A stretch of DNA of 64,000 bases from Gracilaria vermiculophylla (Eukaryota > Rhodophyta > Florideophyceae > Gracilariales > Gracilariaceae), in assembly GCA_019155205.2 (NCBI GenBank), contig JAHNZQ020000049.1, positions 2,182,307 to 2,246,306 of the forward strand, read 5' to 3'. Position 1 is the stretch's first letter. Every line of letters begins with the position of its first letter. The translations under genes and the position numbers were made by a program. Below the pieces are notes generated by a model. The model was given only the letters and a program-made list of their open reading frames with translations, did not search any database and was not told the origin of the DNA. Shown here piece after piece: positions 9,376 through 36,889 of the stretch.

Positions 9376-9919
9376 ACTTGACCAGCAGGTTAGCCAGCAA
9401 TACCATATGTAGTGCAACGTCCTCCGCGGAGGTTTTTTTGGCACTTTTCCGATTCACCGGATTCCGGTTCGGCCATAACGCCGCACGCGCGATTCACGTA
9501 CGTTTGCACGATGGATTCTGGAGTAACCGACCCGACCTGTGTCGCGCAACGTGGCACGCGTGCGGTAGCCGCGCATGGCCCGATGTCTACAGTATGGGCG
9601 CCGGCTGACACGTGCCTTACACGGTTAATATTTTCGCTATTTTATTTATTTAGTTATCTCGGCCATTTTGGCCTTACCGCTGCAGTACTTAGCGCGATGG
9701 CACTCCGGCGGTCGCGCCAAGTAGACCGCACCAAGCGGAATTTCCAGTCTCAACATGCCGCCCACGCGGGTATCTCTCTCTACCTTGGAGAAGTACGCCG
9801 TGGACTACGTACGTCGACTGCCCGTGACGCCGAGAACCATCGTCTAGACAATTCTGCCCTTCTTTCGGGTTCACCCTCGTACGAGTATATTGTGATACCG
9901 TCAGTTCTCCTTTTGCTGT
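9376..9919. other. no supportable gene; moderately GC-rich
   Basis: Frames on both strands reach 169 aa but show no known domain or signal peptide and overlap each other, so I treat them as chance. A 12-bp palindrome CCTCCGCGGAGG at 9421-9432 followed by seven T resembles a terminator hairpin by chance or by remnant function. Confidence 0.4.
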
Positions 9920-9920
9920 A

Positions 9921-10800
9921 GTAGTACACAACGTCCGATAGGAGTTTTTGTTGATTCCAAAGGTGGGAGTTACTAATGCCGGTCTCCGGTAATCGCTATC
10001 ACGAGCCGGGGGAATCCTGAAAGGGGATCCGTAAAATCCAAACGGTGAGGGAGGTTCACTGTGCGGACATTGCTCCTGCAGTCGCTCCTACGAGGTGACC
10101 TACTGATTGGCGGCTTAGAAACCTACGGAGGTTTGACGAGAGTCTCCAACCGAAACAATAGAGGTAGTCTCAAGGGTGCTTGGTTTCCTTCCCCAGAGGT
10201 GGAGCTCGACCGGCAGATTACGTATCACGCCTGGAGCCTGCCTCGGCATGTATCACAACTGTACTAATTACCTGCAACAATTAGCTATAATAAACCTAAA
10301 TTTTACCGTTCCTCAAAGGTGCTGTAGCGCACGTGGGCTGCATTATGTGTGGTACTGTCAGCCCTGCTCTCGAGGTAGTAAAGCACAACGTCCGTTAGGA
10401 GTTTTTGTTGACTCCAAAGGTGCGTGTTCCTAAAGGTGGTCTCCGGTATCTGCTGTCGCGAGCCGGGGGAATTCTTAAAGGGGATCCGTAAACACCAAGC
10501 GGAGGAGGAGGTTCACTGGGCGGACAATGCTCCTACAGCCGCTGCTATGATGCAACCTGGGGATCGGCGGCTTAGAAACCTGAGTTGATCGACGAGAGAC
10601 TCCAACCGGAAAAGTAGATGAAGACTCAAGGGCGCTTGTCTTCACTTTCTCAGAAGTGGAGCTCAACTGGCAGGTTAAATACCAGGCCGGGAGCCCGCCT
10701 CGGCAGGTCTCACTACTGTACTAATTACCTGCATAAATTAACTAAAATAAATAATAATTCTCCCGTCCCTCAAGGATACTGTAGCGCACGTGGGCGGGAT
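9921..10800 (+). repeat. tandem pair of about 455-bp repeat units
   Basis: Unit 1 runs from about 9921 and unit 2 from about 10375 to 10800. Shared landmarks appear in the same order in each: CACAACGTCCG, GGAGTTTTTGTTGA, GAGCCGGGGGAAT, GGGGATCCGTAAA, GGTTCACTG, CGGCTTAGAAACCT, CTGTACTAATTACCTGCA and CTGTAGCGCACGTGGGC. Divergence is modest. They could be two LTR-like or satellite units. No coding sequence is evident. Confidence 0.8.
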
Positions 10801-10951
10801 TATGCACAACGTGGCCCAGCTACTAAAATACGAGCCCTCCTTAGGAATATTATAGCATAAAGCCAAACCATCCTATTTCCTTAGGAGCCACTGTACTACA
10901 TTATGCACAACGTGGCTCAGCTAATGAAATATGAGCCCTCCTTAGGAATAT
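10801..10951 (+). repeat. tandem 101-bp short repeat
   Basis: TATGCACAACGTGGCC at 10801 recurs as TATGCACAACGTGGCT at 10902. Each copy is followed by CAGCTA, an A-rich run and GAGCCCTCCTTAGGAATAT. The motif partly resembles the start of the 455-bp unit (CACAACGTCCG...TTAGGA), suggesting the same family. Confidence 0.75.
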
Positions 10952-13900
10952 CCCGTCTTAAAGCCACACCACCATATCACCTTAAGATTGACTGTAATAA
11001 AAGAATCCACACCGGACCTCCGGTTTACCTCTTTCGGAATACGTCCGCCTCCCACTGAACATGGCCTGCCCGAAACTAGCGCGTCCGAATATATTACCCG
11101 GCCGCGCCGAGGTAGCCCGATGTGTAGCAGAAAAATCTCAGAGAACAGTACGGAAACTGCATCAGTCACGGGACTTGCCGGATCTCTGGTTTCTTCATTA
11201 ATCTTCCTCCTGCACCCTTTGCTACGGCTTGGCCCCAGAGTTACGCCCGGCTCGTGTGTCTTGCCCGAAGAAGGCTCTGCTCCTGAGCCAACTGGAAAGA
11301 GAGAGCTTCAAACATCCCCCATAGTTATTTCCCCTTTTGGGGTATTTTACTACTCTATGAGGCTCCAAAGATCCGTAATCGCTGTATCTGCTCCGACAAA
11401 TCTGCTGCCGTAAGCCTGTCGGACACTTTGTGCCTGCAGCTATTTTGGTGCTGCTGTATATCTTTTGCATACCATTTGGTCTCTCCTTTTGGATGTATCC
11501 ACTTCTGCGCTATGTACTCCAGTCGCTCCCTGTTAACCACCAGCCGTCTCCGCGTGCACCGTAAGATGTCCTAGAGAAGGAGGAAAAACTATTTACTGAA
11601 TCATCAAAAAGAGTCAAAGTTCATAAAGCTAATAAGTTTTTCAAACGATTTTAAAACTGAGATTCATTTCAGAACTCGTTGTCGTGGTCTTCCATTATTA
11701 TTATTACGGGTTTCATACTTTGCCAAAAATGTGATATATTTTTGAAACAGACTACACTTAAGAACTTGGTTGATATTCGATTTGACATATTGATATATGG
11801 ACAGTGCATGTTGAATAAAATATTTAAGAAAAATCACCGTTTGGGCTATGCTGAGATCCTTTTTTTTTATGGTGCCCATGCGTGGCAGTTCTTATCAGCC
11901 AGAACAAAAATCGGATTTTCATGGTAATGTGGCCAGCCTCATGCGTTATATGGCAACATGGGTTTTTTTTTCAGACGAGGTACGTGGCTCAAGCCCGGAC
12001 AACATAGGGGGAAGTTTACGCATATTTGGTGGGATGGGTGTGGGAAGTGATACTTGTAATAGAACAAGTACCGGAGTTCTAGGCAAGTTTGTGGCTACAC
12101 CACGAGCTGTTTTATAGATTCTGAAAATAGCATGTGACTAGCAAAGAGTAGGTTGTGCATAGAATGTAAAGGAAAGCTGGTCGGACTTCTGCCCAGTACA
12201 ATTGTAGCGATTTAGATAGGCTCAGTGAAATGCATATACTGTCGGGTGAATTGCAACTATGAAAAAAGCAAAGTCAGTATGCGGCGCTATGAAATTTATA
12301 GTTGTGTCAGATATTCGTCTGCTGGATAAGCAGCTTATGATGATCATAAATAGCAGGAGGTAAAAACATGTCAATTAAACGAAGACGCCAAATATTTTGA
12401 CGTCATTCGACACACGATATTGCTCATGTCGAACCATACCTGGTACGCTACTGAAACTTATCAAACATAGGGCATGCTATTTCAAGTGTTTAATGTCATG
12501 TGCACTTTTAGTAATCGGTTTAAAGCTTGAAAGATCTCGAGCTCGAGTGCATCAGCAATATCAGATGTACAGAAAAGCGATGATACTTCACATTAGCATG
12601 GCATTTTCGAGAGTGTTTGAACCATAGAAAAACTATATCATGATCACAATGCCCTGAGGCTGATCGGGCAAACCGGTGTCCAGCAGAATCAATCCGCGGT
12701 TAGGTATGTTCCTCAACAGTCTAAGAGTGCAGCAAGACTTCTCAAATTTCGAATATACATGGTTTGTGTATGCCAGCAACGGTGGCATCGATGTGGTTCT
12801 TTTGTCAATATGGACTTTTTTTCAAACTTTCAAGTTTCGCTCCACTGTCAGCTACTTCAAAGTAGATCATCTAGGATCTGAGTACAGATTTAAAACATAA
12901 CGCTTCAAAAAAGTGAAAGCAAACGTCACCTCTTGAAATCTGTAATCAGTAGAGGATGACCTAACTTACTTTGAATGTGCCCTTAAATGAAACCTTGTTT
13001 CATGAGAGGAGGAGGAGGAGCCACCGGAAAAGCCATAGATGGCAGCATTCCGCGCATAACAAGCTGCATTCGTGGAGCACTGATTTTGCAAGCTCGGCAC
13101 AGATGGGGCTTGTCCAACATGTCCGCACTCTTCGTAAGGTATCTACGGAAGCGCGCCATTTGAAGGGTTTCGTTTTTGTCGAGGGTAGAAGGGTATTTTA
13201 TGAGCGATGGGTTTTCTCTCATGTAGGACCTGAAGGTGGGGGGCACAAATGATGAAACATCACAGTGAGAGAAAAGGGGGCGTCGAAACCAACAACACAA
13301 GCGCAGCAACAATAAAAATCGTAATAAGATTCAAAACATAGACTGTTGAAGAGATGCGCGAGTAAAATGCAAGAAACGGCTGAGTGGCGGGAAGGGCAGA
13401 CTAGCTCATTTTGAGAGACATTCGACGAGTTCAACAGACATATCCGACGACCAATGTTTTCAACTATCTGTTGTGAGAGGTAGCCGTGTGTTTAGCGTCA
13501 AGTGCTCAATAATCTTGTGTCGTTTAAGGAGGCAATGCACGGATCGGAACGTTGACAAGGGATCTACTGGCGACTACCTTGTCTATCACACCGTGCACTT
13601 CTCTATGAGGTTAGACTTGGGCGGCGCCACCTTCTGTTTCATGATTTGGCTCCGGACTTGGTTTCCAGGGGAATTTATGAGAACAGCGCAAGGAACTGTG
13701 GCTGCGTCCCCTTCTTGTGGTCTGTTTGAAGCTAAAAATTTAAGAATATGAATACGCGGAATCGTGTCCTGTGCTGCGAAAGCGGCAGTGGTGAGAGCGG
13801 TAACGATGCGCGGGCTTGCGACTGTGCTGCGTTGTGCACTTCACAGGAAATGGTGTGGGGAGGGTAGAAGGTCTGATTGAGAGCCTTCTAGAACAATGGC

Positions 13901-14686: not shown

Positions 14687-15097
14687 ATGCTTCTTTCCTG
14701 CCGCCCTACCGTGCTGCTCGCCTGCGCGCTGGCGCTGGCGCTGTCGCTATCGCTCCCGGCGCCGGCGGTGGGTGCGCTGCCTGCCCCGCGCCTCTGGCAG
14801 CAGCGTGCGCTGAACCAGGCGCGCGCAAAGGAGCGTGCGCTGCAGGCCGAGCTGGCCCGGTCTACGAAGCTGGCGGGCTGCATCAGTAAGCGCGAGGCGC
14901 TGGTGCGACGCCTGAGCACGCTCGCGACCGCGGCCGCGCGCGTGCAGCTGCTCGCGGCGCGCCGGCTGTGCGGCGGCGTGCGCGCGCGCGCGCCCATCGA
15001 GGCCGACCTGCGGCGCGTGCGCGAGCGCATCCGCCAGCTGCAGCGCGCACTGGCGCCGCGGCCTAGCGTCGCGCCGCGTCCCGTGCACCCGTGGTGA
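14687..15097 (+). CDS. small secreted coiled-coil-like protein, unknown
   Basis: This 136-aa frame starts at the ATG in ACCACCATGC, a good eukaryotic context; the frame upstream of it lacks an ATG-initiated extension. Residues 1-29 are a strong signal peptide: MLLSC, then an Ala/Leu/Ser-rich core ending PAVGA. The mature part is rich in Arg, Ala and Leu with heptad-like spacing, has few cysteines and ends in a Pro-rich tail. I do not recognise a family. It lies 235 bp upstream of the DXS start in the same direction, and a G-box lies between. In sequence this GC-rich, long frames arise easily, so the gene could be spurious; the signal peptide and start context are the main support. Confidence 0.4.
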
Positions 15098-15149
15098 CCG
15101 ACGCTCGCCGCTCCGCTCCCCACCGCTGCAATCCGCTAGAGCCACTCAT

Positions 15150-15155
15150 CACGTG
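15150..15155 (+). promoter_or_regulatory. G-box CACGTG upstream of DXS
   Basis: A CACGTG palindrome in TCACGTGGC lies 178 bp before the chosen DXS ATG. In plants such boxes bind bZIP/bHLH factors and are common in light-regulated plastid genes. Relevance here is inferred. Confidence 0.3.
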
Positions 15156-15332
15156 GCAAATTGTAATCGTTGTAAACACGGCCACGTTGCCACGTCCCCG
15201 TTGCACTTCGCCCCCTCGCAGATGCCCATCGTGTGGCACAAGCGAAGCGCCGCTCCCCACTTTATCCTACCCCCACCGTCAGCGCTGCGCGTCATTTCTC
15301 CCGCCGTCCATCCGCCCCCCGCGAATCACAAA

Positions 15333-17531
15333 ATGCGCCCCCTCGCTGCCGCTTTCACCGTGCCGGTCGTGCCGCTGCCGCGCCACTCCTCCTTCGCCCC
15401 CGCGTCTCGCCCGCCTCGCCCTCCCCGCCACCGACATGTACCCCTCCGTGCCGCGCTCGACCCTTCCTCCTCCCCCTCGCAGCCCGCCTTCCGCGGCCCG
15501 CGCTCCACCCCGCTCCTCGACTCCATAGCCTCTCCCCAAGACTTGCGCCGCCTCCGCGCCACCGATCTCTCCGCACTCGCCCAAGAGCTGCGATGGGACG
15601 TGCTCCGCACCGTCGCCGCCACCGGCGGCCACCTCGGCGCCTCGCTCGGCGTCATCGAACTCACCATCGCCCTCCACTACGTCTTCAACACCCCCCACGA
15701 CCGCCTCATTTGGGATGTCTCCCACCAGGCCTACCCGCACAAGATCCTCACTGGCCGCCGCAACCGCATGCACACGTTGCGCAAGAACGGCGGCCTGTCC
15801 GGTTTCACAAAGCGCGCCGAGAGCGAGTACGACCCGTTCGGCGCCGGCCACTCCTCTACCAGCATTAGCGCCGGCTTGGGCATGCAGGTCGCACGCGACG
15901 TCGCTGGCGTCCCGGGCCTGTCCATCGCCGTCATCGGCGACGGCGCCATCACCGGCGGCCAGGCTTACGAGGCCATGAACAATGCGGGCTACCTTAAGAA
16001 TCGCTTCATCGTCATCCTCAACGACAACGCGCAGGTGTCGCTGCCCACCGGAACCAAGTCCGTCGCCGGCGTCCGCCCCTCAGGCGCCCTCAGCGACTAC
16101 AGCAGCCGCGTCCTGTCGTCGCGCCCGTTTCAGGACCTGCGCGGCGCCGCGAAGAACCTGTCGCGCCTCTTTCCGGAAGGCTTCCAGGACGTTGCCGCCC
16201 AGGTCGACGAGATTGGCAGGGGCTTCCTGTCGCAGGGCGGCACCCTGTTCGAGCAGCTGGGCTTCTACTATGTGGGGCCCATTGACGGCCACAAACTCCC
16301 TGTGCTCGTCAACGTGCTGCAAAACGTCCGCGACATGCCCGGCAACAAGCCCGTTTTGATTCACGTCAAGACCCGCAAGGGCAAAGGCTACCCGCCGGCG
16401 GAGGCCGCCCTGGACAAGTACCACGGCGTCGCCCGCTTTGACGTCGCTACGGGGAAGCAGCACAAGTCCGTCTCCAAGACCCCTTCGTACACCTCCGTCT
16501 TTGCCAACGCACTCGTTGCGCATGCGCACAAGGATCGCAAGATTCTCGCCATCACCGCGGCCATGCCCGGCGGCACGGGCTTGAACGTTTTCGGAGAAGT
16601 TCATCCCACGCGCTGCCACGACGTCGGCATTGCCGAGCAGCACGCCGTCACCATGGCCGCTGGCATGGCCTGCGAGGGCTTTAAGCCGTTTTGCTGCATC
16701 TACTCCACCTTCTTGCAACGGGGCTATGACCAACTTGTGCATGACGTCGCCCTGCAAAAGCTGCCGGTGCGATTCATTCTCGATCGCGCCGGCCTTGTGG
16801 GGAACGACGGTCCCACGCACCACGGATCGTTTGACCTGGCCTACATTGGCTGCATTCCGCACATGACCATCATGGCGCCCTCCGACGAAATCGAGCTGCA
16901 GAACATGGTCGCCACCGCTCTCAACATAGACGATGGACCGTCTGTCGTGAGATACCCGCGTGGAGTGGGTGTCGGCTTGGACGTGATCAACTCCAAGTTT
17001 GGTGGCAACTATCCGGAGATGCCTGTAAAGGGGCGTCCCGTGCCGATTGGGCGCGGCCGTATCATCCGTCGTATCGGCTCCATGAGCGGAAGGAAAGGAT
17101 CTGTGGCCATCCTCAGTCTGGGAACGCGTCTGATGGAGGCCGTCAAAGCATCGGAAATGTTGCAGCAACTGGACATTGCCGTCACGGTTGCCGATGCGCG
17201 CTTTATGAAACCGCTGGACCGCGATTTAATTCGCGAATTGGCGTCCACACACGAGATTATGATCACAGTGGAGGAGGGTTCCATTGGTGGCTTTGGTGAT
17301 CATGTGTTGCACTTCTTATCCCTCGAGGGTCTGTTGGATGACGGCGCTGTCAGGTTTAGACCTATGGTTCTGCCGGACCGATTCATTGACCACGGCAGTC
17401 AATCGGAGCAGTACGAAGAGGCTGGTCTGAGCGCCAAGCACATTCACGCCACCGCGATGCGCTTGTTGGGTCGCTCGGCGGAGCTCATGCCCGTCTCGTC
17501 ATCCATGGATCAGAGCAGCGCGGGCAACTGA
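15333..17531 (+). CDS. DXS: 1-deoxy-D-xylulose-5-phosphate synthase, plastid
   Basis: The enzyme condenses pyruvate and glyceraldehyde 3-phosphate with thiamine diphosphate, the first step of the plastid MEP isoprenoid pathway. The protein is 732 aa, normal for plastid DXS. Residues 1 to about 45 are Pro/Arg/Ser-rich with no acids, a transit peptide. Visible motifs: GGHLGASLG (His100), [15 protein letters not shown], the ThDP motif GDG at 202-204 with NDN at 230-232, [17 protein letters not shown], the catalytic Glu435 in [10 protein letters not shown], and [15 protein letters not shown]. In the last motif Asn and His replace the commoner Ala and Cys. I chose the ATG at 15333 (AAAATGC context). 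The frame is open upstream, with an earlier ATG at 15222 and a GTG at 15153. No intron. GC is very high at the 5' end and falls towards the 3' end. Confidence 0.96.
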
Positions 17532-22985: not shown

Positions 22986-25900
22986 TCCAATCGACGACCA
23001 GTGGGTAGGGGACAAGGAGAACGAGATGTTAGTGAACTTTATAACAGCAGCGGCAGAGAAAGCAGTTCCCAAAGGTAGGATGCGCCGTCGCACACCATGG
23101 TGGTGCGATGAGGCGTCTGTAGCAATCCAAGCTCGGGAAATTGGCTTGGCACAGTGGTGCTTGAATCAATCAAAGAAGGCTGCAACAAACCTGCAGAACA
23201 CAAGACGAGAAACGGCAAAGACAATAGATAGACTAAAACGAGAGAGCTGGAGAAAGTTCGTTTCCGGGCTGCAGCCACACTCTGACGACTACAAGCTATG
23301 GAAGATAATAAAGGCCATGAACACAAGCCGCGCACGATCGACATCAATTTTTCCTCCCGGCGGCGAAGCATGGTCAGACATGAAGCGGGCAAGATGGTTT
23401 CTCCGAAAAAAATTAGAAGGCCAGGACATTCGGAAAACATCACGTTCACTAAAATCGATACCGACGAGCCTTGGACATTTACAGGGAAAACTCAAAGCGA
23501 GAGACACCGGCCGTCTTCGAAATGACACAACTCAAAAATGGGCTGCAGGACATGAACGAGAGACGTGCAGCCGGCCCCTACGGAGTTGAAATAGTATTCT
23601 TACGTCGACTTCCCGAAACTGCCCGGTCCCGCCTTCTCCACCTCATCAACAGGACACACAGAGTGGGCGTCACGCCGAGCAGCTCGAGAACGGCCACGCT
23701 AGTTCCCATCCCAAAGCCGGAAGCGCGAAGAAAGTTCAGGCCTATCTCCCTAACACCAGTGATATACAGAGCCGCCCAGCAGTTAGTGAATAAGGTATCA
23801 ATGCGGTGGCTTGAACCTAAACTTCCACCCCAGCAATTCGGCATTCGCATGAACAGAATCACAGAAGAACATGTAGCCGCCATGACGGAAGGCATCACAA
23901 GTGGTTGGAATCAACGAAAGCTGTCTTTAGCAGCCTTCTGCTATATCTCTAAAGCCTACGACCGCGTCCCACATCATCTGCTGTTTGCGAAACTCAAAGC
24001 CTTGAAGTGTCTTGCACCTCTTTTGAGGTGGCTACGATCCTTTGTAACGGACAGGAGGTGGAAATTCAGATGGAACACGGGTATTAGTGCTAAAGCGCTA
24101 ATACTTCAGGGTCTTCCCCGGGGTAGTACGCTGTCACCGGCCTTTTGGATAGCTTCTGTACTAGAACTGCCCTCCAGAATCACGCAGACAGTACAGAATG
24201 TGGAGCCCAACCTCTTTGCAGTCAACACCACCGTATGGACAACTGCAGGACGTCCAGAAGAATATCAAAGAAGGCTGCCGGACACATTAATCGCTCTCGA
24301 ATCCTACTGTGCAGAGAATGGCATACTAATGAATCCATCAAAAACAGTACTAGTTCTCTTCACCCTAAGCCGGTGGCAAGCCAAGAAGGAAATATATGCT
24401 GTCCGATTTGTGGGCGATACTGTTGTATTGAGCGAATGTGCACGGTTTCTAGGGGTCCTCCTGGACTCCCGCCTAGACTTCAAGACACATATTGACCTCA
24501 TTGCCGTAAGATATAAGAGATGAAACAATCTCATGTGCTGCTTAACACGCCGGTCGTGGGGCGCGGAGTGGGACATGATGGACACTGTGCGAGTGGGGTT
24601 TGCAGAGCCACTTGCATCATATGTGGCAGGACCTGTTATACTAACTGCAATCAGGTCCGGATTCGATTCAATCGAGTTCCAACGGAACGAGGCGGTACGC
24701 ATTCAAACCAGATGCTTACGATCGACAACTGTACCCATACTTTGGGAACTCGCTCAGCTTCGAAAAATAGAGGAAATCGACAAGACGAAATCGGCGGTGC
24801 TTACCGATAAAACGATGAGACAGGTCAGCACTACTCTGCTGAAGACAAAGCTCTTCTGCCACGTACAACGAGGATTTCGCAAACGCAGATCCACATTGAA
24901 ACGCGTCGCTGAGATATATCTGGCACAGAAACGCATTCTGCAACTTTAATACCGCGAGCGATTGCCGAACGAGGTTGGGCTTCTACCCCTGAAACACATA
25001 AAGTTCGAATGCACGCCATTCAGTAAAGATGACCCGCCGGAAGAAAAAGCCACAGCCACACGCTTGTTGATCCTAAGCTTACCTAAGGGAGACTGGGACA
25101 TCTGGTGTGACGGATCTATTGGAAATTATAAAGTAGACGCGGCTGACTGATCGAAGAGAGTAGCTGTCTGTTGGGACTATGGATGGTTTGCAGGAACTTC
25201 AAACTACATTTCTAGCGTAGCACCAAACGACCCATGCGTTGAATAACTTCTTAAGAGACAGAGAACTGTACCAATCATGTGGGTCCACTACGATGACAGT
25301 TAAAAAATGACGTAAAAGATGGAGAACGAAACCTCTACCATTGATTTAGACGGACATTTCTTAGAAGTCTAAATTCTCCCACAGGTTACGGTTAGATCAG
25401 GAGCGTATAAAATATGGCGAAAGGATTCACTGGTAACGGAAACAGAAATGGTGCCTTCCGGTGTCGATGTTCGCTCCTACACAGCAGAGATTCGGGAAAT
25501 GGATGCAGCCTTTGACAAAATCAGTGAGGAAATCGAGAAGTTCATTAGGATCTCTACGGACTCGTTCGCACTCGTTGAAGGGCTTGAAGGGAATTTTCAT
25601 TTTCAGTGCACTGGATTGCAACGTTTAGCTTCCAAGCTTCACGCACTAGGCAATCGATGCGAGATGTATTTTATTTGGGTTCCCAGCCACTGTGTTACAG
25701 CGCAAGACGAGCTCGCCAACACACTTGCAAAGTCTGGATTGGAGCTGCCGCTGGAACAGCAACTGGCCGTGCTGGTGGATTTCGCGGACGTCAAATCCCA
25801 TCCAAGAAAAAGAGCAAGACCAAAAGTGTTTTAAGGAGTCAAGCGGAGCACGAGGCAGGAGAGGCAAGAACAGTAGAATTAATGCTCGCCCAGTTCGCCA

Positions 25901-28128: not shown

Positions 28129-28512
28129 CTAATTACGGTCTAGATTTGTTTCTTTAAAAGGAACCTGTAGATACTCTCGTTCATTGTATCTACTGTCTAC
28201 ATAGAAGCAGTACTGCATCCCGTTACAGAGCAACGTTGACTCTAACTGTCGACCCATTTCCGACCTTGCGTATAACGTCCAGTCATGCTTTCTTCCCTCC
28301 ACTGGTCCGTACCCAGGAAGCACGACTCTATCAGGGGTCATCACTGTTTGATACTTCAGACTATGAGCTCTTTTTTTTCCTTTGTAGACAATTTTTTGCA
28401 AGCTTTCGTCGTTTGGGCGTGCAATTTTCCATACAGTTCCATCAATAAGACCGATGCAATTATCCAAACCTCCAGTTTTATGAAGTACTGCCTCTGTCCA
28501 AGTGTCTGCCAA
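28129..28512 (-). pseudogene. PIF/Harbinger DDE transposase fragment
   Basis: The minus-strand frame contains GLIDGTVWKIARP (first catalytic Asp block), YKGKKRAHSLKYQ, TPDRVVLPGYGP, EGRKHDWTLY and FYVDSRYN (second Asp block), the order of DDE_Tnp_4 transposases. The N-terminal part continues in another frame past about 28512, and the C-terminal third with the last acidic residue is missing. It uses a non-ATG start in this frame. It belongs with the Myb-like frame at 26949 and is a different subfamily from the transposase at 29068. Confidence 0.75.
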
Positions 28513-28888
28513 TTATATACCATCGTGACATTATTCCTCCAACACATTTTGTGTAACCCTGAGTTATTTCGGTAGTTGGCAATAGCCGCGACTAAACATT
28601 GAAAGTGTGGACCATTTTCAAAGATTTTTTTCTTTTACAACGCTTCCGATTTGAGAAAAAAATTTTTTTATACCTTAAAATTACTTTCTCGCCATTTTTT
28701 TCAAGCTTTCGTAAAGACATGTTCTCCAAACAGAATGTTTTGAATTTTAAAATACCCTTTTTTTCTTTGTTGTCAATTTGAAATTCAAATATAATGAACC
28801 CAGAAGAACTTCAGAATTTTTCAATTTTACTTTGGCGTTAAATATTTCTGGAGAAGCTCGGTCTAACTAGTAAAGCCTACTTGTTTTA
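28513..28888. other. AT-rich spacer up to the Harbinger insertion
   Basis: The first part is transposase-derived in broken frames. The rest is T-rich with no gene. It ends with the TTA target duplication at 28886-28888. Confidence 0.5.
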
Positions 28889-28914
28889 GGCCCTTTCTAC
28901 ACATGGACAGGACA
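28889..28914 (+). repeat. left terminal inverted repeat of Harbinger
   Basis: Starts GGCCCTTTCTACACATGGAC and pairs with 36393-36418 read on the minus strand with a few mismatches. Preceded by TTA. Confidence 0.85.
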
Positions 28915-29067
28915 CGGTGCATTCTGTCTGATATACCCTTGATCCTGGAGATTCCCCATTTCTTAGGACAACTGTTGTCCTGTCCAAAATACCCGGCATT
29001 TTGGGGTCGCTTCAAAGCGACTCCAACCCAAAACCCAAGCTTCGCAACGGCTTTCATCACTATACAT

Positions 29068-30279
29068 ATGGACTCTTATCGCTGTAGATGCTTTGCCGCA
29101 GCAGTTGTGGCTGTACTTGTGACTCAAGAAGACAACTCTGATATTACCACAGTTCAAAGCTTGCTGTCTTTGCACTCTGCTCCTGTTGTGATCCTTTCAT
29201 CTTGCGATGTACGCCGTAGAACACCCGGAAGGGTATGGTCCCGACGCAGAAACTCTCCAACCTGGTTCTTCGCCTTTGCAGTCAAAAGAGATTTCATGGG
29301 CTGCGCGTTCTGGAAAAGTCTTTTCCGAATCACGTACCTGTTATTTCAACAATTGTCGCAAGGACTACGGGCCATCATAGAGGCAAGCAATTCAAAGGTT
29401 CGTAAAGCTCTGCCAGAAGAGATCAAAGTAGCAGCTTTTCTGCTGTACGCTGGCGGATGTACTTGCGAAAAGGCTGCGACACATCTCTGAAAAGGCGCGA
29501 GTACAGTATCTGCAGGCGTGAAGACAATGACGAAGGCTATAACTCAAAAGTACAAAGACGCTGTGCGCTTCCCAACCGAAGAGCAAGATATTGATCTTGC
29601 AATGAATGGATTTGAAATGCTGAGCGGTCTACCCTACTGCGTCGGGACAATTGATGGAACTCATATCAAATGGCTATGTTTCCCTGAAGAACATTACTAT
29701 GAATACAGATGTTACAAAGGATATCCAAGTGTAGTACTGTTTGTGGTGGTTACTGCTAATGAAAGGTTTACTTTCGTCGATATTGGAAAGCCTCGGGTTC
29801 TTGGTGACTCTACAGTATTCGAGCAATCTACATTAAAGAAGAATATTGATAATAGAACATGGATGGGGGACGACATACCAGACTTGGTTATCGCAAACAT
29901 CGCTGTTCGTCCGTACGTAATTGGAGATTGCGCCTTCCAGCTCACCAAACATATGATGAAAAGCTGTACCGAACGTGAGAAAAACGCCAACCCGGTATTG
30001 CGGACGTTGGATAAAGTGGCAAGCACGACGAGGAAGGCAGTAGAATGCGCATTCGGAATGCTCAAACGACGCTTCTGTGTTCTGAAAGATGGAATTCGAC
30101 TGCAACATGAGGACGACATGGTCATATTTATATTCGAATGCGTCGTTCTACATAACTGGAGCATTGACAATGGCGACGACCCGGAGTTTTATTTAACTAC
30201 TGACGAAGACGAAGATCAAGATCTTGTTGTCACTGTGGTGACGACTGCAGGAAAGAGACAAAGGGATGACTTATTATAA
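29068..30279 (+). pseudogene. Harbinger DDE transposase with one in-frame stop
   Basis: From the ATG at 29068 one frame of 404 codons runs to 30279, broken only by TGA at 29488-29490. The N-terminal part has a helix-turn-helix-like segment (EEIKVAAFLLYAGG...CEKAATHL, stop, KGASTVSAGV). After the stop come the DDE_Tnp_4 blocks: YCVGTIDGTHIKW (first Asp), YEYRCYKGYPS, FVDIGKPRVLGDSTVF, VIGDCAFQL (second Asp), ECAFGMLKRRFCVLK and VVLHN. A downstream ATG at 29524 could still start a protein with the catalytic core but without the DNA-binding part. The role is cut-and-paste transposition of the surrounding element. The C-terminus is acidic with a basic end (GKRQRDD). Confidence 0.85.
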
Positions 30280-30315
30280 TATATAACCAACAACTGTAGT
30301 GCAGAGTAGCATGCA

Positions 30316-31029
30316 TCAGAACATATTAACTAAACGTTCCAAAAATGTATTCGTCTTCTCGCGCTCTTCGTTACTTTTCAGAATCTCTGACATCAAAGTC
30401 TCAATTGCCTGTTCTTGCGATTTTATGAATTCGGACAGTAAGGAATCTCGAGAGAGCTTCACGCACTTCCGAGTGCTCGATGCTAGTAATTCCGGGGCAC
30501 TAGCACCGTCATCCGTTGAATACTGCACTGGTGGATCGAAGCGCGCCTTTCCATTCTCCAACTGGTGCATCTGCTCGAAATACTCCGGCGTATTGAAAAG
30601 AAATTCGTCATCACTATCCCTGCCAGATTGGTTGAGTTTAACCATGAGTGCAGAGTATTCCTGCTTTATGCGGGTGAACCTTTTTTTGCCAATCTAAGCG
30701 GTTCTTTTGATGCCATGGCTGCTTTCAGCGAGCTTCACGGCGTCGGTGAAGAAGTCCTTTTGGCTTTTCATATGTTGCTTTCGATCGCCATAGCCAGCTT
30801 GCTTTATCATGGAAAACAAAAGATTAACTGTGTCATTGTCATAGGTCGGTATGATTGGCACACTGTTGGATGGTGCATGGTTTTGTTGGTTTCCTGGCTG
30901 GAATGGTGGGCAGCCTGGTGAAGTGTTTTTTGTTATGCCAGTACTATGTTCACTTAGGGCAATGGGTGGGGCTTGAGATGCCGCGGCAATAGCTGCAAGC
31001 GTGGGGTCTTGTCCTGAGGTGTTTGTCAT
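30316..31029 (-). pseudogene. Myb/SANT-like Harbinger accessory gene with one in-frame stop
   Basis: On the minus strand one frame runs from an ATG at 31029 to 30316, interrupted only by TAG at 30694-30696. The N-terminus is Ala/Pro/Asn-rich. Next come VNLLFSMIKQAGYG and, after the stop, KKRFTRIKQEYSALMVKLNQSG with an acidic block and EYFEQMHQLENGKARFDPP. This matches Myb/SANT-like transposon proteins (the LLNQSGFGWDEE...W..Y...P pattern). The tail is a coiled-coil-like helix (SEFIKSQEQAIETLMSEIL). Such proteins assist the transposase in nuclear import and DNA binding. The frame is also open upstream to the retrotransposon junction and beyond it at 36332-36400, so the 5' leader was split by the insertion. 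Confidence 0.7.
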
Positions 31030-31144
31030 GGCTGCAGCAGAGCTCTGGTGAGATTCGGGTAGGAAGAAAAACTTCTGGTACTGCGAGATGAACGAACGAA
31101 CGAACAGTTTTCCCTGGATCTTCGTTGGCCGGAGATGTGCATAT

Positions 31145-31353
31145 TGTGCCAAATCGCGCTCTCGCTGAGACAAAGACCGGCATTCTTGGGAAGTTGCCTT
31201 CCCCTCCTCCGATCATTCTCCGATCGGGTGCCTTTTATTTTCTCGACTTTCTAATTTGACTCCATCAAATTAGCCCAAGATATCTTGCCGACCACGGCGC
31301 GCTTAATTTTTGAGTACCACTCTTAATTAGAGCTTTGACTTCTATTTGTCACA
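31145..31353 (-). repeat. 3' LTR of the nested gypsy element
   Basis: 209 bp, TG...CA ends, four differences from the partner LTR: C versus G near the left edge and three C versus T. Flanked on the left by CATAT. Confidence 0.92.
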
Positions 31354-31407
31354 GTGCTCAATGAACTAGTTTGTGCCAAATGTACTAAACAACTGAGACT
31401 ATCTGGT

Positions 31408-33390
31408 TCATTCTAGGCTACACAATCGCAAAGCTCTCTGCTTCAAATCAAGCTTTCCAGATGTGCTTAAAAAGTCTTCAACCATTCCAGGTTGGTCCTC
31501 AAAGACTTGATGAAGTGGTTCCCAAGTAAAATCAGTCTCATCAGGCAAACCATCCCATTCTATGAGAATCTCAACACCTGTCGGACCATCTCGAATGTCA
31601 TTCAAGCGTTCGACTTTCTCTATGACAGCCTCATTTTGCTTGATTGCAGACAGTAAGTTGTCATCGACTATTGCTCCATCCAAATTTGTTCTGTATGGCA
31701 GCATACGGCGTACGTGAACAGACTCTTTCTTTTTCGTCACGATGTTTTCTACGGTAAATACCGACTCCGATTTCACCGCAACAATCCGTCTTGGTCCTTT
31801 CCACCTGAACTGGAGTTTTTGTCTACCATCCACAGTCTGACGCACTAAAACAAACGATTCGACCTCTAAACTAGGGAAGTGAACCATTGTCTTCATATTG
31901 TGCTGATGAACCCTATTTCTTTGGCCCTTCGAAACCAGTGTCGCTACATCGCGATGCATGCCCTCTATTGCCTCCTGTAATGCATTGACTTCAATCAACT
32001 GTCGCGCACGAGCTTCACTTGTTGATACTACTTTGGGATACCCCTCCGGTACCCATGCAGACAGCAGCGGACGTTTTGGCTTATGCCCAGTGAACACTTC
32101 GAGAGGAGTCCGGTACACATTCTTCTCTGAGTTACTTCTCAGTCCCAGCCTCTTCAAAGGCGCATGATTAAGTACACTCTGTACGACTTCCGTGACCTTG
32201 TTCCATTCGGTAGGCTTCAGTTTCCACTCGGCTAGCAGCACTTTACAGGCTCTTTGCACCTCACGGCAGATGCGTTCTACAGATCCATTTGCCCAAGGAC
32301 AATATGCCGTAGTAAAATGATGATTGTAATGAAATTCTTCTGACGAACTCTTCATCAGACTGTTCCGAAAATGTGCACCTTGGTCAAAGACTAATGTTTC
32401 CCAACCACTGAACGACGCAAGCCATGTCGATAGTGCCTCGACTGCAGTGATACTGTCTGCGGTTGTCGATGGCCATAGCCAGACAAATCCTGATAGGTCG
32501 TCCCTGATCAATAAAAGGTATTTGAACTCTGATGTACTTCGCCCCATGTGCAAGAAATCGACATGAAGAACTTCGTTTGGGCGTGTGGCGTGAAGTGCCT
32601 GTCCAAAAGGCCTCGCCACGAATGATCCGGCTCTGGACAAAATGCAATAGAGACAGTCTTTCACAAATGCTTTGACGTCTCCTGACAGAGATTTCCAATA
32701 AAACTCCTCGCGGATGATGCTTTCCGTTGCAGTTGCACCCCGATGTCCGCAACTACCACAATGACGAACGACCATCAGTTTGAGCTTGAGCTCAATATCC
32801 TTATCTGGGATCCACATTCGTCCCATGACGCGATACATTCCGTCACTGTCTTTCATCACTTCAGCTTCTTTCTCATAATCCTGTTGAACTCTTTGAATGT
32901 CAGCCCTGCTCGCCCAAACAAAGCAATTTGTCGGAGGAATCATTTGCGTAGATGCAACTAATACGCTGGAAATGGATCTGGCTGAAGGTTTTGAACGGTA
33001 TCCCTTTGTCCATCTGGTCAGCATGTCCGCACAGACATTCCTTTTTCCTTCAATGTGCTCAATGATGTAATCAAATCTTGCTAAATATAAAGCCCATCCC
33101 TGCACCTTGCTGACTATGTGACGTCCCAGGGAAGATTCGTAGGCAGTGGGACAGAATACGAACAAAAGATTGTGATGGTCTGTAAACACTACGCTACCCA
33201 GGCGGCCAAGCAACATGTCGTCCATCTTCTTGAAGACCTGGAATATCGCATAGGCTTCCTTTTCGTACGTAGTCCACCTCTCCTGCGTCTGGTTGAAAGC
33301 ACCACCAACAAATCCGAGTGTTTCATGTTCTTGTGCTTCCAAAGGCCATCGTATATGATCATTAGGTATCTGGGTGACCACACCAGACCA
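31408..33390 (-). CDS. RNase H, integrase and chromodomain of the nested gypsy element
   Basis: A long uninterrupted frame, in the same frame as RT after the TAA. The RNase H remainder has EKEAYAIFQVF and VVFTDHHNL. The integrase zinc domain reads HCGSCGH...DCLYC. The catalytic triad is Asp in LHVDFLHMG, Asp in VFDQGAHF and Glu in WANGSVERI, with the DD35E spacing. A chromo-like C-terminal domain is visible: VEKVERLNDIRDG...ILIEWDGLPDETDFTWEPLHQVFED, with the aromatic residues expected for methyl-lysine binding. Integrases with chromodomains direct insertion to heterochromatin; here the insertion lies in another transposon. The first ATG-like start is at about 33381. Confidence 0.88.
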   Translation of the reverse strand, partial: WSGVVTQIPNDHIRWPLEAQEHETLGFVGGAFNQTQERWTTYEKEAYAIFQVFKKMDDMLLGRLGSVVFTDHHNLLFVFCPTAYESSLGRHIVSKVQGWALYLARFDYIIEHIEGKRNVCADMLTRWTKGYRSKPSARSISSVLVASTQMIPPTNCFVWASRADIQRVQQDYEKEAEVMKDSDGMYRVMGRMWIPDKDIELKLKLMVVRHCGSCGHRGATATESIIREEFYWKSLSGDVKAFVKDCLYCILSRAGSFVARPFGQALHATRPNEVLHVDFLHMGRSTSEFKYLLLIRDDLSGFVWLWPSTTADSITAVEALSTWLASFSGWETLVFDQGAHFRNSLMKSSSEEFHYNHHFTTAYCPWANGSVERICREVQRACKVLLAEWKLKPTEWNKVTEVVQSVLNHAPLKRLGLRSNSEKNVYRTPLEVFTGHKPKRPLLSAWVPEGYPKVVSTSEARARQLIEVNALQEAIEGMHRDVATLVSKGQRNRVHQHNMKTMVHFPSLEVESFVLVRQTVDGRQKLQFRWKGPRRIVAVKSESVFTVENIVTKKKESVHVRRMLPYRTNLDGAIVDDNLLSAIKQNEAVIEKVERLNDIRDGPTGVEILIEWDGLPDETDFTWEPLHQVFEDQPGMVEDFLSTSGKLDLKQRALRLCSLE

Positions 33391-34314
33391 TTACTGTTCG
33401 GAAGCATCCGTAAAGATACATACGAGCCATTCGTCTTTTAGAAACGACAGTCTTACAATGTTACGGAGACTCTCTTGTTTGTCCTTGAACGCAGTCTCAT
33501 GGTACTTTCCCCAAGAGAGACTACGGAGCTGAACACGCTTCAAGAGACTCTTCTTTCGCTTTCCAATTTTGGCATATGCCTGTTGCAGCAGGTCTGTCAA
33601 GGGCTTCATTCGTGCGACCAAATCTGGTATGCCATTACCCATCCACCTACAGCAGGGTACAAACTGACAAAGTTCATTTGCCGTCTGGGGCAATTGTAAA
33701 TCTCGGAATGCCTCAATGCGCGTCGGATCCATGCGGTACCCGTTTTCGTCAATGATACGACCACACCAGCGAATTTCCTTCTTGAAAAAGCTAGACTTTC
33801 TTGCCGAGACGTACAGTCCTTTCTCATGACATACCTTAAGGAATTTTGCATCTACCTCCATCAATGATTCTTCATCTTGGTCGTGGAGTGCAAAATCATC
33901 AATCCAAAGCATCAAGGACGGCTTCATATGTTCAAATAGTGGGTATATCGATCCCTAAAAATGTGGAACTGCATTAGTCATACCCATAAGCACTCTGCGT
34001 GATGAGTATACGCCATTTGGCGTTACAAATGAGCAATTAGAATACGAGTCTTCATGCAAAGGAAGCTGCCAGTATCCTGATACTAAGTCAATTGCCGCAA
34101 AGACTGTGCTTCCAGCAAAATCTTGCATCTCTACTTCCAAGTTAGGCATCGGCCATGCAATATTTTTTGTAGCTGCATTCAGTGGCCTAAGGTCTATGGA
34201 AAGCCTGAAATTCACCCTTCCTTTCTTTGGTACAACTAAAGGCGCAAATTGCCATTCTGCACCTGGGTTAGGAAAGATAAACCCCATATCTACCAGCTTG
34301 TTCAAAAAAGGCAT
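33391..34314 (-). pseudogene. reverse transcriptase and RNase H start of the nested gypsy element
   Basis: One frame, with TAG at 33955-33957 in the middle and TAA at 33391-33393 at the end. Blocks in order: LVVPKKGRVNFRLSIDLRPLN, MPNLEVEMQDFAGSTVFAAIDLVSGYWQLPL, FVTPNGVYSSRRVLMG, then after the TAG the catalytic LWIDDFALH (WIDD in place of YxDD), the thumb and the first RNase H aspartate in CIFTDASEQ directly before the TAA. The catalytic aspartates are present; only the stops prevent a continuous protein. Confidence 0.85.
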
Positions 34315-35134
34315 CCATGTAGTTTCTATGCGGTGTCGCGTAACGCCTGACCTTCACCTTAACTGGCTTCTGCCCTTCGTTGATGTTCACACGTGAGGGC
34401 AGTACTTTGGCGGAAGGGGTCTTTTCAAGACGTAAGCGAACTACATGCCTGTACTTCTTGAATAGTCGGTGCAACTGCTGACAGCCCGTGTTGGACATCC
34501 CATTGGCCCTGGCGTCTTCAACAAGGCCTGCAAGAGCTGCGTCCAAATCCTTTGGGTCATCTTCACCAAGATCGATATAGATGTCGTCATCGGAGAGTTC
34601 TTCATCCTCAACGGTACCAACGCTGTGATATATCGAAGTGTCGGTAGACAGTAGAGACGCTATCTTCGACTTTTCACCCACATTCTCTTCTTGTGGATGC
34701 AAACTTACGTCAATATCTCCTTTCAATCGTGTGGCTGCTGCCTTAAGATCCTCACGATTATTTAGACCCAAGGTATCCAAGGTTTGCCATCCGAGAATGA
34801 CATAGTCACAAGTAACGTCCATAATCCGCCACGTCGAGTTCCTTATTCGAAGTCGGGTCCCATGTCGGATCCCAAGCTCAACATCAGCGACGCGAATGCT
34901 ACGCGTTGCTATAGACGGAGCCTTGTTGTCAAAACTGTTGTAATACTCTGTCGGATTCAGTTTCTTAACATCCCGAACGCAGTTCTTTTGCTTCAGTCGT
35001 TTAAAAATTGCTGTGGGAATGAAGTTGACCGCTGCTCCTTGATCAGTGAGAAGAGTCACATCCAATATCTCCCTCTGACCAATGAAGGTTGCATCAAACA
35101 TTACAGAACTGAGAGCCATACCAAGAGATTGCAA
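34268..35134 (-). CDS. protease region of the nested gypsy element
   Basis: The frame is the same as gag and continues 12 codons after the gag stop. LLTDQGAAVNFIP occupies the place of the retropepsin active site; the usual D-T/S-G is D-Q-G, an unusual change that may abolish activity. VILGWQTLDTLGL is the expected C-terminal flap-side block (family pattern ILG.D.L...G). An acidic linker and the start of RT (QKPVKVKVRRYATPHRNYM) follow. RT then continues in another frame from about 34314, so a frameshift, natural or mutational, lies near 34.27-34.31 kb. Confidence 0.7.
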   Translation of the reverse strand: MQSLGMALSSVMFDATFIGQREILDVTLLTDQGAAVNFIPTAIFKRLKQKNCVRDVKKLNPTEYYNSFDNKAPSIATRSIRVADVELGIRHGTRLRIRNSTWRIMDVTCDYVILGWQTLDTLGLNNREDLKAAATRLKGDIDVSLHPQEENVGEKSKIASLLSTDTSIYHSVGTVEDEELSDDDIYIDLGEDDPKDLDAALAGLVEDARANGMSNTGCQQLHRLFKKYRHVVRLRLEKTPSAKVLPSRVNINEGQKPVKVKVRRYATPHRNYMDAFFEQAGRYGVYLS

Positions 35135-35170
35135 CGTTTTGATCGTTTTCTTCTTCTCTCTCTGTTCCTT

Positions 35171-35932
35171 TCAGATCTGCGCAAATATTTCTTTCTTCTT
35201 CTCTGTAGAAGTGTTCTTGCAGTCCTTGAGCTTGTACCTCTCTCTAGGACATGTCTCCTTGTTCCAGCAAAATGGAAGCATACGCGGACGTTTTATGTCC
35301 TCGTCACTCGTGCTTCCTTTCTTTGCGTCGGAATCAAGATGTCGCTTCTTGGAAATCATACGGTTAGCGCTCAGTGGTAGGATATCCGAAGCATCACCAC
35401 CCAAACCAGAACGCGTACTTCCTGTCCGGGCTTGTTCAATTATTTGCGCTTCTTCGGCTAGTCGTATAGCATAAACGCGAAAATCACTCTTGTGAATCTT
35501 TGTCTTACACTCCATACGGATGATCTCCTCCATATGATTGAACAGCTTACGGGGCTGCGTGCGCTCACGAATATGACGAATTGCAGTTTCCGGGCACTCG
35601 CAAATGGCTTCAGTGTATCCCGCTTTGCGCAACGCTTCCATATAGTCCACGATTAATTGCCATACACGACTCTTGGCGTCAGAAAGCTTCATGTTCATGC
35701 GCACATCTGCGACGATTCGTTCCCATTCAGTCATGCGTAACTTCTTAAAATCCAGCTTTGAATGTTTCTCGAGACACCCTTTGAGCATGTCTTCAGTTAT
35801 GTCTTCAACTTTCTCCGCATAGAGATACTCGCCATCGATCAGTATTTCAAGAACAGTCTGAGTTATGGATGCTTCGTACGACGTAGGAGTGATCTGAACA
35901 TTAGGATCCTTGTTCTTTTCACTAACTTTCAT
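35171..35932 (-). CDS. gag-like protein of the nested gypsy element
   Basis: 253 aa from an ATG. The N-terminal two thirds is helical and charged (EDITEDMLKGCLEKHSKL, MKLSDAKSRVWQLIVDYMEALRKAGY), as expected of a capsid region. Near the C-terminus is a cysteine knuckle, CWNKETCPRERYKLKDC, a variant of the retroviral CCHC zinc knuckle with altered spacing. A homologous region, including DAKSR and the same C-x5-C-x9-C arrangement, occurs on the plus strand at 36.89-37.52 kb. The frame ends in TGA at 35171-35173, and the same frame continues at once into the protease, so the stop may be a readthrough site or a mutation. Confidence 0.75.
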   Translation of the reverse strand: MKVSEKNKDPNVQITPTSYEASITQTVLEILIDGEYLYAEKVEDITEDMLKGCLEKHSKLDFKKLRMTEWERIVADVRMNMKLSDAKSRVWQLIVDYMEALRKAGYTEAICECPETAIRHIRERTQPRKLFNHMEEIIRMECKTKIHKSDFRVYAIRLAEEAQIIEQARTGSTRSGLGGDASDILPLSANRMISKKRHLDSDAKKGSTSDEDIKRPRMLPFCWNKETCPRERYKLKDCKNTSTEKKKEIFAQI

Positions 35933-36122
35933 CTCATAAATCTGTCGTTCTATCAGAAAAGCCGATATAGATGGAACATCGATATGCTGCAGAAGAGGAG
36001 CTTCGAGACCGACATTCGTTGTCTGGGGAACAGTCGCATGATCCGTCTTTTCACTTCATCTATGGTTGCCAGAATTGTTGTGAGCTGCGAGCACGACCTG
36101 TTTGTTCGCAAACAGTAATTAC

Positions 36123-36331
36123 TGTGCGAAATCGCGCTCTCGCTGAGACAAAGACCGGCATTTTTGGGAAGTTGCCTTCCCCTCCTCCGATCATTCTCCG
36201 ATCGGGTGCCTTTTATTTTCTCGACTTTCTAATTTGACTTCATCAAATTAGCCCAAGATATTTTGCCGACCACGGCGCGCTTAATTTTTGAGTACCACTC
36301 TTAATTAGAGCTTTGACTTCTATTTGTCACA
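36123..36331 (-). repeat. 5' LTR of the nested gypsy element
   Basis: 209 bp with TG...CA ends, followed by CATAT at 36332-36336. It would be the promoter-bearing LTR of the minus-strand element. Confidence 0.92.
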
Positions 36332-36392
36332 CATATGACCGAAAAATGTCTTGTGGACACCTTGGCGCCAAATTGTGTCCATCGGGAAACTT

Positions 36393-36418
36393 GTCCTTGT
36401 CCATATGTAAAAACGGCC
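36393..36418 (-). repeat. right terminal inverted repeat of Harbinger
   Basis: On the minus strand it reads GGCCGTTTTTACATATGGAC. Followed on the plus strand by TTA. Confidence 0.85.
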
Positions 36419-36889
36419 TTAAGGAAGTGATTTTTTGGGATTTCTGCGACGTTGTGATATTATCAGTTTTTGAAATTGAACACTTGTGACCCAGAATGAA
36501 GCCATATGAGATCAGGGGGAAGAAAATACTCCACGTCGAGCCATCAGCCTTTCTTCCGGTTTCCTTCAGCGAAGGTGCGAGACATAGATCTGCATATTTG
36601 CATATTTACAACGTCGGCAAACAAAGATCGCAGTTTTTGTTTGCAAATCAATGGGTCAGAAAGATGACAGTATTGAAGATGATTCGCATGTTTAGCAAAC
36701 AAATGTGGTGGAAATAGAAACATCGCAATTTCAGCATATTTGTCTAGAATCTATACTCTGTTTAGTCGAAACCCAAATCGTTACGAAAAAAGAATTACTG
36801 AAAAAAACAAAGAAGGTCTCAGTATTCTTCCAAAGTCCCTGAATATGTGATCAACAGAAGTCGTTATGGAAACGATGATTTAAGCAATA
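36419..36889. other. AT-rich spacer right of the Harbinger
   Basis: It begins with the TTA duplication. No gene is supported; one short frame at 36496 shows no domain. Confidence 0.45.

Follow-up and report, generated by a model that had tools for sequence, protein, structure and literature searches.

Structure of the nested locus

In the window, the 64,000-nucleotide stretch of Gracilaria vermiculophylla DNA analysed here (contig C18, 2182307-2246306; the genome searched comprises 44.8 Mb in 27 contigs), a transposon of PIF/Harbinger type is split by a Ty3/gypsy chromovirus-like retrotransposon, which occupies 31145-36331 (5187 bp) on the minus strand and sits between the Myb-like frame of the transposon and its right TIR. 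The ends of both elements, and the short duplications that border them, are listed with the coding regions in Table 1. Two further traces of mobile elements have been identified to the left of the nest: a piece of a different DDE_Tnp_4 transposase immediately beside it, at 28132-28512 on the minus strand (E 3.2e-13), with an 82% match on contig C21, and a plus-strand reverse transcriptase frame at 23453-24520 (RVT_1, E 1.1e-23). The DXS protein encoded in the window (ORF 14916-17531, of which residues 240-640 served as query) points to a red alga: among the best 120 of 8000 matches, it shows 97% identity with a EukProt transcript protein, 86% with Chondrus crispus and 74% with Porphyridium purpureum.

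Table 1. Features of the nested elements, in window coordinates
Feature	Position	Strand	Basis or remark
Outer PIF/Harbinger transposon, split by the inner element	28889-36418	+	TIRs, TTA, copies with the same borders elsewhere
Left TTA target-site duplication of the outer element	28886-28888		Read directly
Left TIR of the outer element	28889-28913	+	19/25 matches to the right end; common to other copies
Transposase frame, cut by TGA at 29488-29490	28891-30279	+	DDE_Tnp_4 in the second piece
Second gene (Myb-like), stop at 30694-30696	30316-31120	-	Upper limit projected from the open frame of L038
CATAT duplication, left of the inner element	31140-31144		Read directly
3' LTR of the inner element, 209 bp	31145-31353	-	Read directly
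Downstream pol frame (RNase H, integrase, chromodomain match)	31408-33390	-	Pfam matches
Reverse transcriptase, TAG inside at 33955-33957, TAA after it at 33391-33393	33391-34353	-	RVT_1
Upstream pol frame, protease-like by position	34268-35170	-	Other reading frame than the reverse transcriptase piece
Frame taken as gag-like from its position, closed by TGA at 35171-35173	35171-36055	-	Open reading frame
Expected primer-binding-site region after the 5' LTR	36098-36122	-	First eight bases are GTAATTAC, a palindrome
5' LTR of the inner element, 209 bp	36123-36331	-	Read directly
CATAT duplication, right of the inner element	36332-36336		Read directly
Right TIR of the outer element	36394-36418	-	Match to the left end; other copies
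Right TTA target-site duplication of the outer element	36419-36421		Read directly

The outer PIF/Harbinger element

The original prediction had placed the outer TIRs at these positions with TTA on both sides, and both are found there. When 25-mers of the window were paired at random 200,000 times, no pair agreed as well as the two ends do over their first 25 positions, in a comparison that ignores the earlier search for ends from which the prediction came; the same TIRs are common to other copies of the family in the genome. Subtracting the retroelement and one CATAT from the 7530 bp of the whole block leaves a predicted outer element of 2338 bp, in keeping with the roughly 2.3 kb first proposed and with the 2337-2340 bp of its eight uninterrupted relatives.

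The transposase, broken in the window, is a single frame of 463 aa in copy L045. Its second piece in the window matches DDE_Tnp_4 (E 5.3e-19, 68.8 bits against a cut-off of 24.8), a Plant_tran transposase match is present in the element as well, and a protein search with the transposase piece returned 13 relatives, none of which carries a name given by its source. The second gene is a 267-aa frame in copy L038, where it shows a weak match to Myb_DNA-bind_4 (E 8.5e-4, 20.1 bits, below the cut-off of 27); a Pfam search with the broken pieces of this gene in the window gave no match.

A Harbinger element usually has a DDE_Tnp_4/Plant_tran transposase, a second gene read in the other direction, target-site duplications of TWA and ends of GGCC type. 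The outer element shares with autonomous, two-gene PIF/Harbinger elements the DDE_Tnp_4 transposase, short TIRs, TWA duplication and opposite-strand second gene (Myb/SANT-like only by the weak match), and no essential difference from them has been seen, apart from the interruption and the broken frames of the window copy. That it belongs instead to some other group bearing DDE_Tnp_4, outside PIF/Harbinger proper, is very unlikely: the Myb/SANT match lies under the Pfam cut-off and one copy is flanked by TCA, but the transposase matches, the placing of the second gene, the TWA duplications and the GGCC-type ends together make up just the anatomy usual for Harbinger.

Copies of the outer family elsewhere in the genome

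The first 512 bases of the outer element gave at least 24 matches in the genome (23 loci, including that of the window itself) and its last 87 bases at least 14. Apart from the window's own, 22 loci have a 5' match; 19 of these were fetched, together with one that has a 3' match alone, 20 in all, and the three left out were short 5' matches. Uninterrupted copies of full length lie at eight of the 20 (L038, L039, L042, L043, L045, L046, L047 and L048). Three others are full-length with inserts (L040, L044, L055), three have both ends and internal deletions (L041, L052, L057), and six show one end only within the fetched stretch (L049, L050, L051, L053, L054, L056). The BLAST borders of L047, L048 and L055 were lengthened by 1 to 4 bases, up to the query ends. 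One of the deletion derivatives, L057 (contig C17, near 4992460), retains both ends and a matched TTA in only 380 bp, the size of a non-autonomous miniature element.

When the window copy is taken together with the 14 others that have both ends, TTA or TAA is matched on the two sides in 11 of the 15; in three (L040, L044, L055) the duplications differ by one base, and in one (L042) the duplication is a matched TCA rather than TWA. The family thus ends at the TIRs originally proposed, mostly with TWA duplications: among the copies read, none extends beyond those TIRs, and the related insertions are not generally without TTA. Uninterrupted Harbinger copies, the object of the suggested search, were found, eight of them at the expected length; the empty TTA site also sought was not seen when each 1000-bp flank was searched separately across the genome. 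The right flank matches itself alone; the left has two further partial matches, the better of which stops at window position 28507, 381 bp before the border. Since eight of the 20 fetched loci are uninterrupted and of full length, the description of most copies in this genome as shredded overstates the decay of the outer family.

The three full-length copies with inserts carry four insertions of a single family of about 554 bp (L040, L055 and, twice, L044), which are 86.5-96.2% alike, have TG...CA-type ends and no coding part, and are bounded by short duplications of 4-5 bp as judged by BLAST overlap. These are probably solo LTRs; a full element of the family was not seen among the sequences examined. 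Two adjoining copies about 80% alike, at 9888-10984 of the window, are related to the same family. Nested insertion is common in this genome.

The inner Ty3/gypsy element

The two LTRs of the inner element differ at four positions without a gap, and their borders and the CATAT on either side lie exactly where they had been predicted. In the frame encoding the downstream part of pol, RT_RNaseH, Integrase_H2C2 and rve all score above their Pfam cut-offs, and a Chromo match falls just below (E 2.4e-5, 24.6 bits against 25.1); RVT_1 was found in both pieces of the reverse transcriptase, in one of them above the cut-off. No Pfam match was obtained in the gag-like frame or in the upstream pol frame, though the latter contains a D-x-G-A motif that we take to be protease-like. 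The TGA at the end of the gag-like frame divides it from pol in the same frame, and may be either a fault or a read-through stop.

Read along the minus strand, the order of the Pfam domains is reverse transcriptase, RNase H, integrase, as in Ty3/gypsy chromoviruses, which the element also resembles in its TG...CA LTRs, and its 5-bp duplication; a candidate C-terminal chromodomain has a Chromo score just under the cut-off. The element differs from chromoviruses in having neither a TGG-type primer site nor an ordinary polypurine tract.

The LTR gave 15 matches in the genome, ten of which make up five copies with two LTRs, the rest being unpaired or partial; one of these, L012 on contig C4, resembles a solo LTR. 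The LTRs of the window copy are 98.1% identical, against 94.2, 93.7, 90.2 and 89.8% in the other four, so that by this measure the window insert is the youngest of the five. Duplications read elsewhere are TGGCT on both sides of a copy on C1 and GCCAG/GCCTG on C14; no 5-bp duplication was found in the flanks read of the copy on C17. In place of a 5-bp duplication, a copy on contig C21 (L019/L020, 1908419-1913598) has a direct repeat on its flanks that is about 87 bp long, with four differences by our count.

Order of the two insertions

At the point where the retroelement lies in the window, all 12 of the other outer copies compared are uninterrupted, eight of them reading CATTT and four a variant of one or two bases, while the window has CATAT twice. 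The borders of each element and the duplications beside them can be read directly at the locus, and with them the order of insertion; the proposal of two events in a fixed order is upheld. Almost certainly, then, a PIF/Harbinger transposon came first and a Ty3/gypsy chromovirus-like element inserted into it later. A 2.34-kb transposon inserted at a TTA site, duplicating the TTA, and the retroelement subsequently integrated in its right part, duplicating the 5 bp CATAT. As to the agents, the encoded domains point to a Harbinger transposase for the first event and a retroviral-type integrase for the second.

The order is proven by the nesting itself and not by dating. The left part of the outer element is 87.5-90.3% identical to the 12 other copies, a divergence that sets only an upper limit to the age of the outer insertion. 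Beside the 98.1% identity of the LTRs it is consistent with this order, being no proof alone; these ages are relative ones and carry no dates.

Because the retroelement lies wholly between the outer TIRs, the entire 7.5-kb block might be a single composite element with the retroelement as moving cargo, but the chance of this is vanishingly small, as not one of the 12 other outer copies carries a retroelement at that place and the retroelement family has flanks of its own elsewhere, such as the TGGCT on both sides on C1. An artefact of assembly, with repeat copies falsely joined, is also highly improbable as the origin of the nest. Assemblies do tend to fail in repeats, and each of the two families occurs in more than one copy; a misjoin would be unlikely, however, to yield two separate matching duplications, TTA and CATAT, together with a 2338-bp remainder that agrees with its relatives. 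In the nest as read, with the retroelement inside an older transposon, both window copies look dead: the reading frames of the transposase, the Myb-like gene and pol are broken by stops or a change of frame.

The region following the 5' LTR

Directly after the 5' LTR, six copies of the inner family read GTAATTAC, and none of the six has a TGG primer site there; an ordinary polypurine tract before the 3' LTR is likewise absent from the copies of this family that were read. Three further gypsy families were compared. In L063 the 5' LTR, its border set in our reading by a GCCCG duplication, is followed by GTTATAAC, and in L064 and L065, which form one family, by GAAATTTC; in L066, an old copy whose border is set by a GTTAC duplication, it is followed by GTTATTTC, with no palindrome. 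An 8-nt palindrome thus follows the 5' LTR in three of the four families read, with paired changes between families; by chance an 8-mer would be palindromic in 1 of 256 independent families. No LTR pair was found in the fetched stretches of L062 and L067. The lack of a polypurine tract had been considered as a shared trait and was rejected as a general one, since in L066 the 3' LTR is preceded by a short run of purines, GAGAAA. The comparison covers the inner family, L063, which has no ordinary tract there, and L066, the fetched stretch of L064 and L065 starting inside the LTR.

As a tRNA test, the genome was searched with two patterns of 18 bases that complement the stretch following the 5' LTR. 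The first was found at ten places with at most two mismatches, six of them the family's own copies, against two for a reversed control; the second was found at 35 places with at most three mismatches (again including six own copies), against 36 for its control. None of the places outside the family overlaps any of 63 tRNA predictions (63 of 1559 candidates scored, a list that may be incomplete), and one lies about 100 bp from a prediction. A sequence recurring at three of the 3-mismatch places was dropped as a primer because, in our reading, it encodes a conserved stretch of reverse transcriptase; one of the three has a distant pol match some 400 bp away. As to self-priming by the LTR, its predicted pairing with the 25 bases that follow did not surpass that of shuffles, the observed energy being reached by 30 to 199 of 200 shuffles in the six sequences, that of L066 having been taken with its border one base late.

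For SM-Tcn1 of Selaginella, likewise, neither tRNA priming nor self-priming is reported to be evident; it differs from the inner family in that a polypurine tract is present (PMC2864245). Since published chromoviruses include some in which no primer site is recognised, its absence here has not been taken to exclude membership among them (PMC2864245). Most elements of the Tcn1 clade are described as having no tRNA-type sites and as predicted to self-prime (PMC6317226).

One possibility, which we consider unlikely, is an unusual start of reverse transcription in the inner family and its relatives in this genome, with the 8-nt palindrome in place of a tRNA site. The palindromes GTAATTAC, GTTATAAC and GAAATTTC could perhaps pair two RNA copies, or fold so as to prime synthesis; the fourth family, with GTTATTTC in an old copy, does not fit. 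Four families represented by few and decayed copies are a small sample for such a reading.

Significance

Nested insertions as such are commonplace, and this nest is a clean example of an ordinary event. Both elements add to known kinds, PIF/Harbinger on the one hand and chromovirus-like Ty3/gypsy on the other, and are of low general interest; within the literature searches made, no title described this nest or these families, which is no proof that none exist. For the odd priming region of the inner family to matter, it would have to prove both general and functional. What the locus does provide is exact ends, target-site duplications and relative ages for two families of mobile elements, which aids annotation in this alga.
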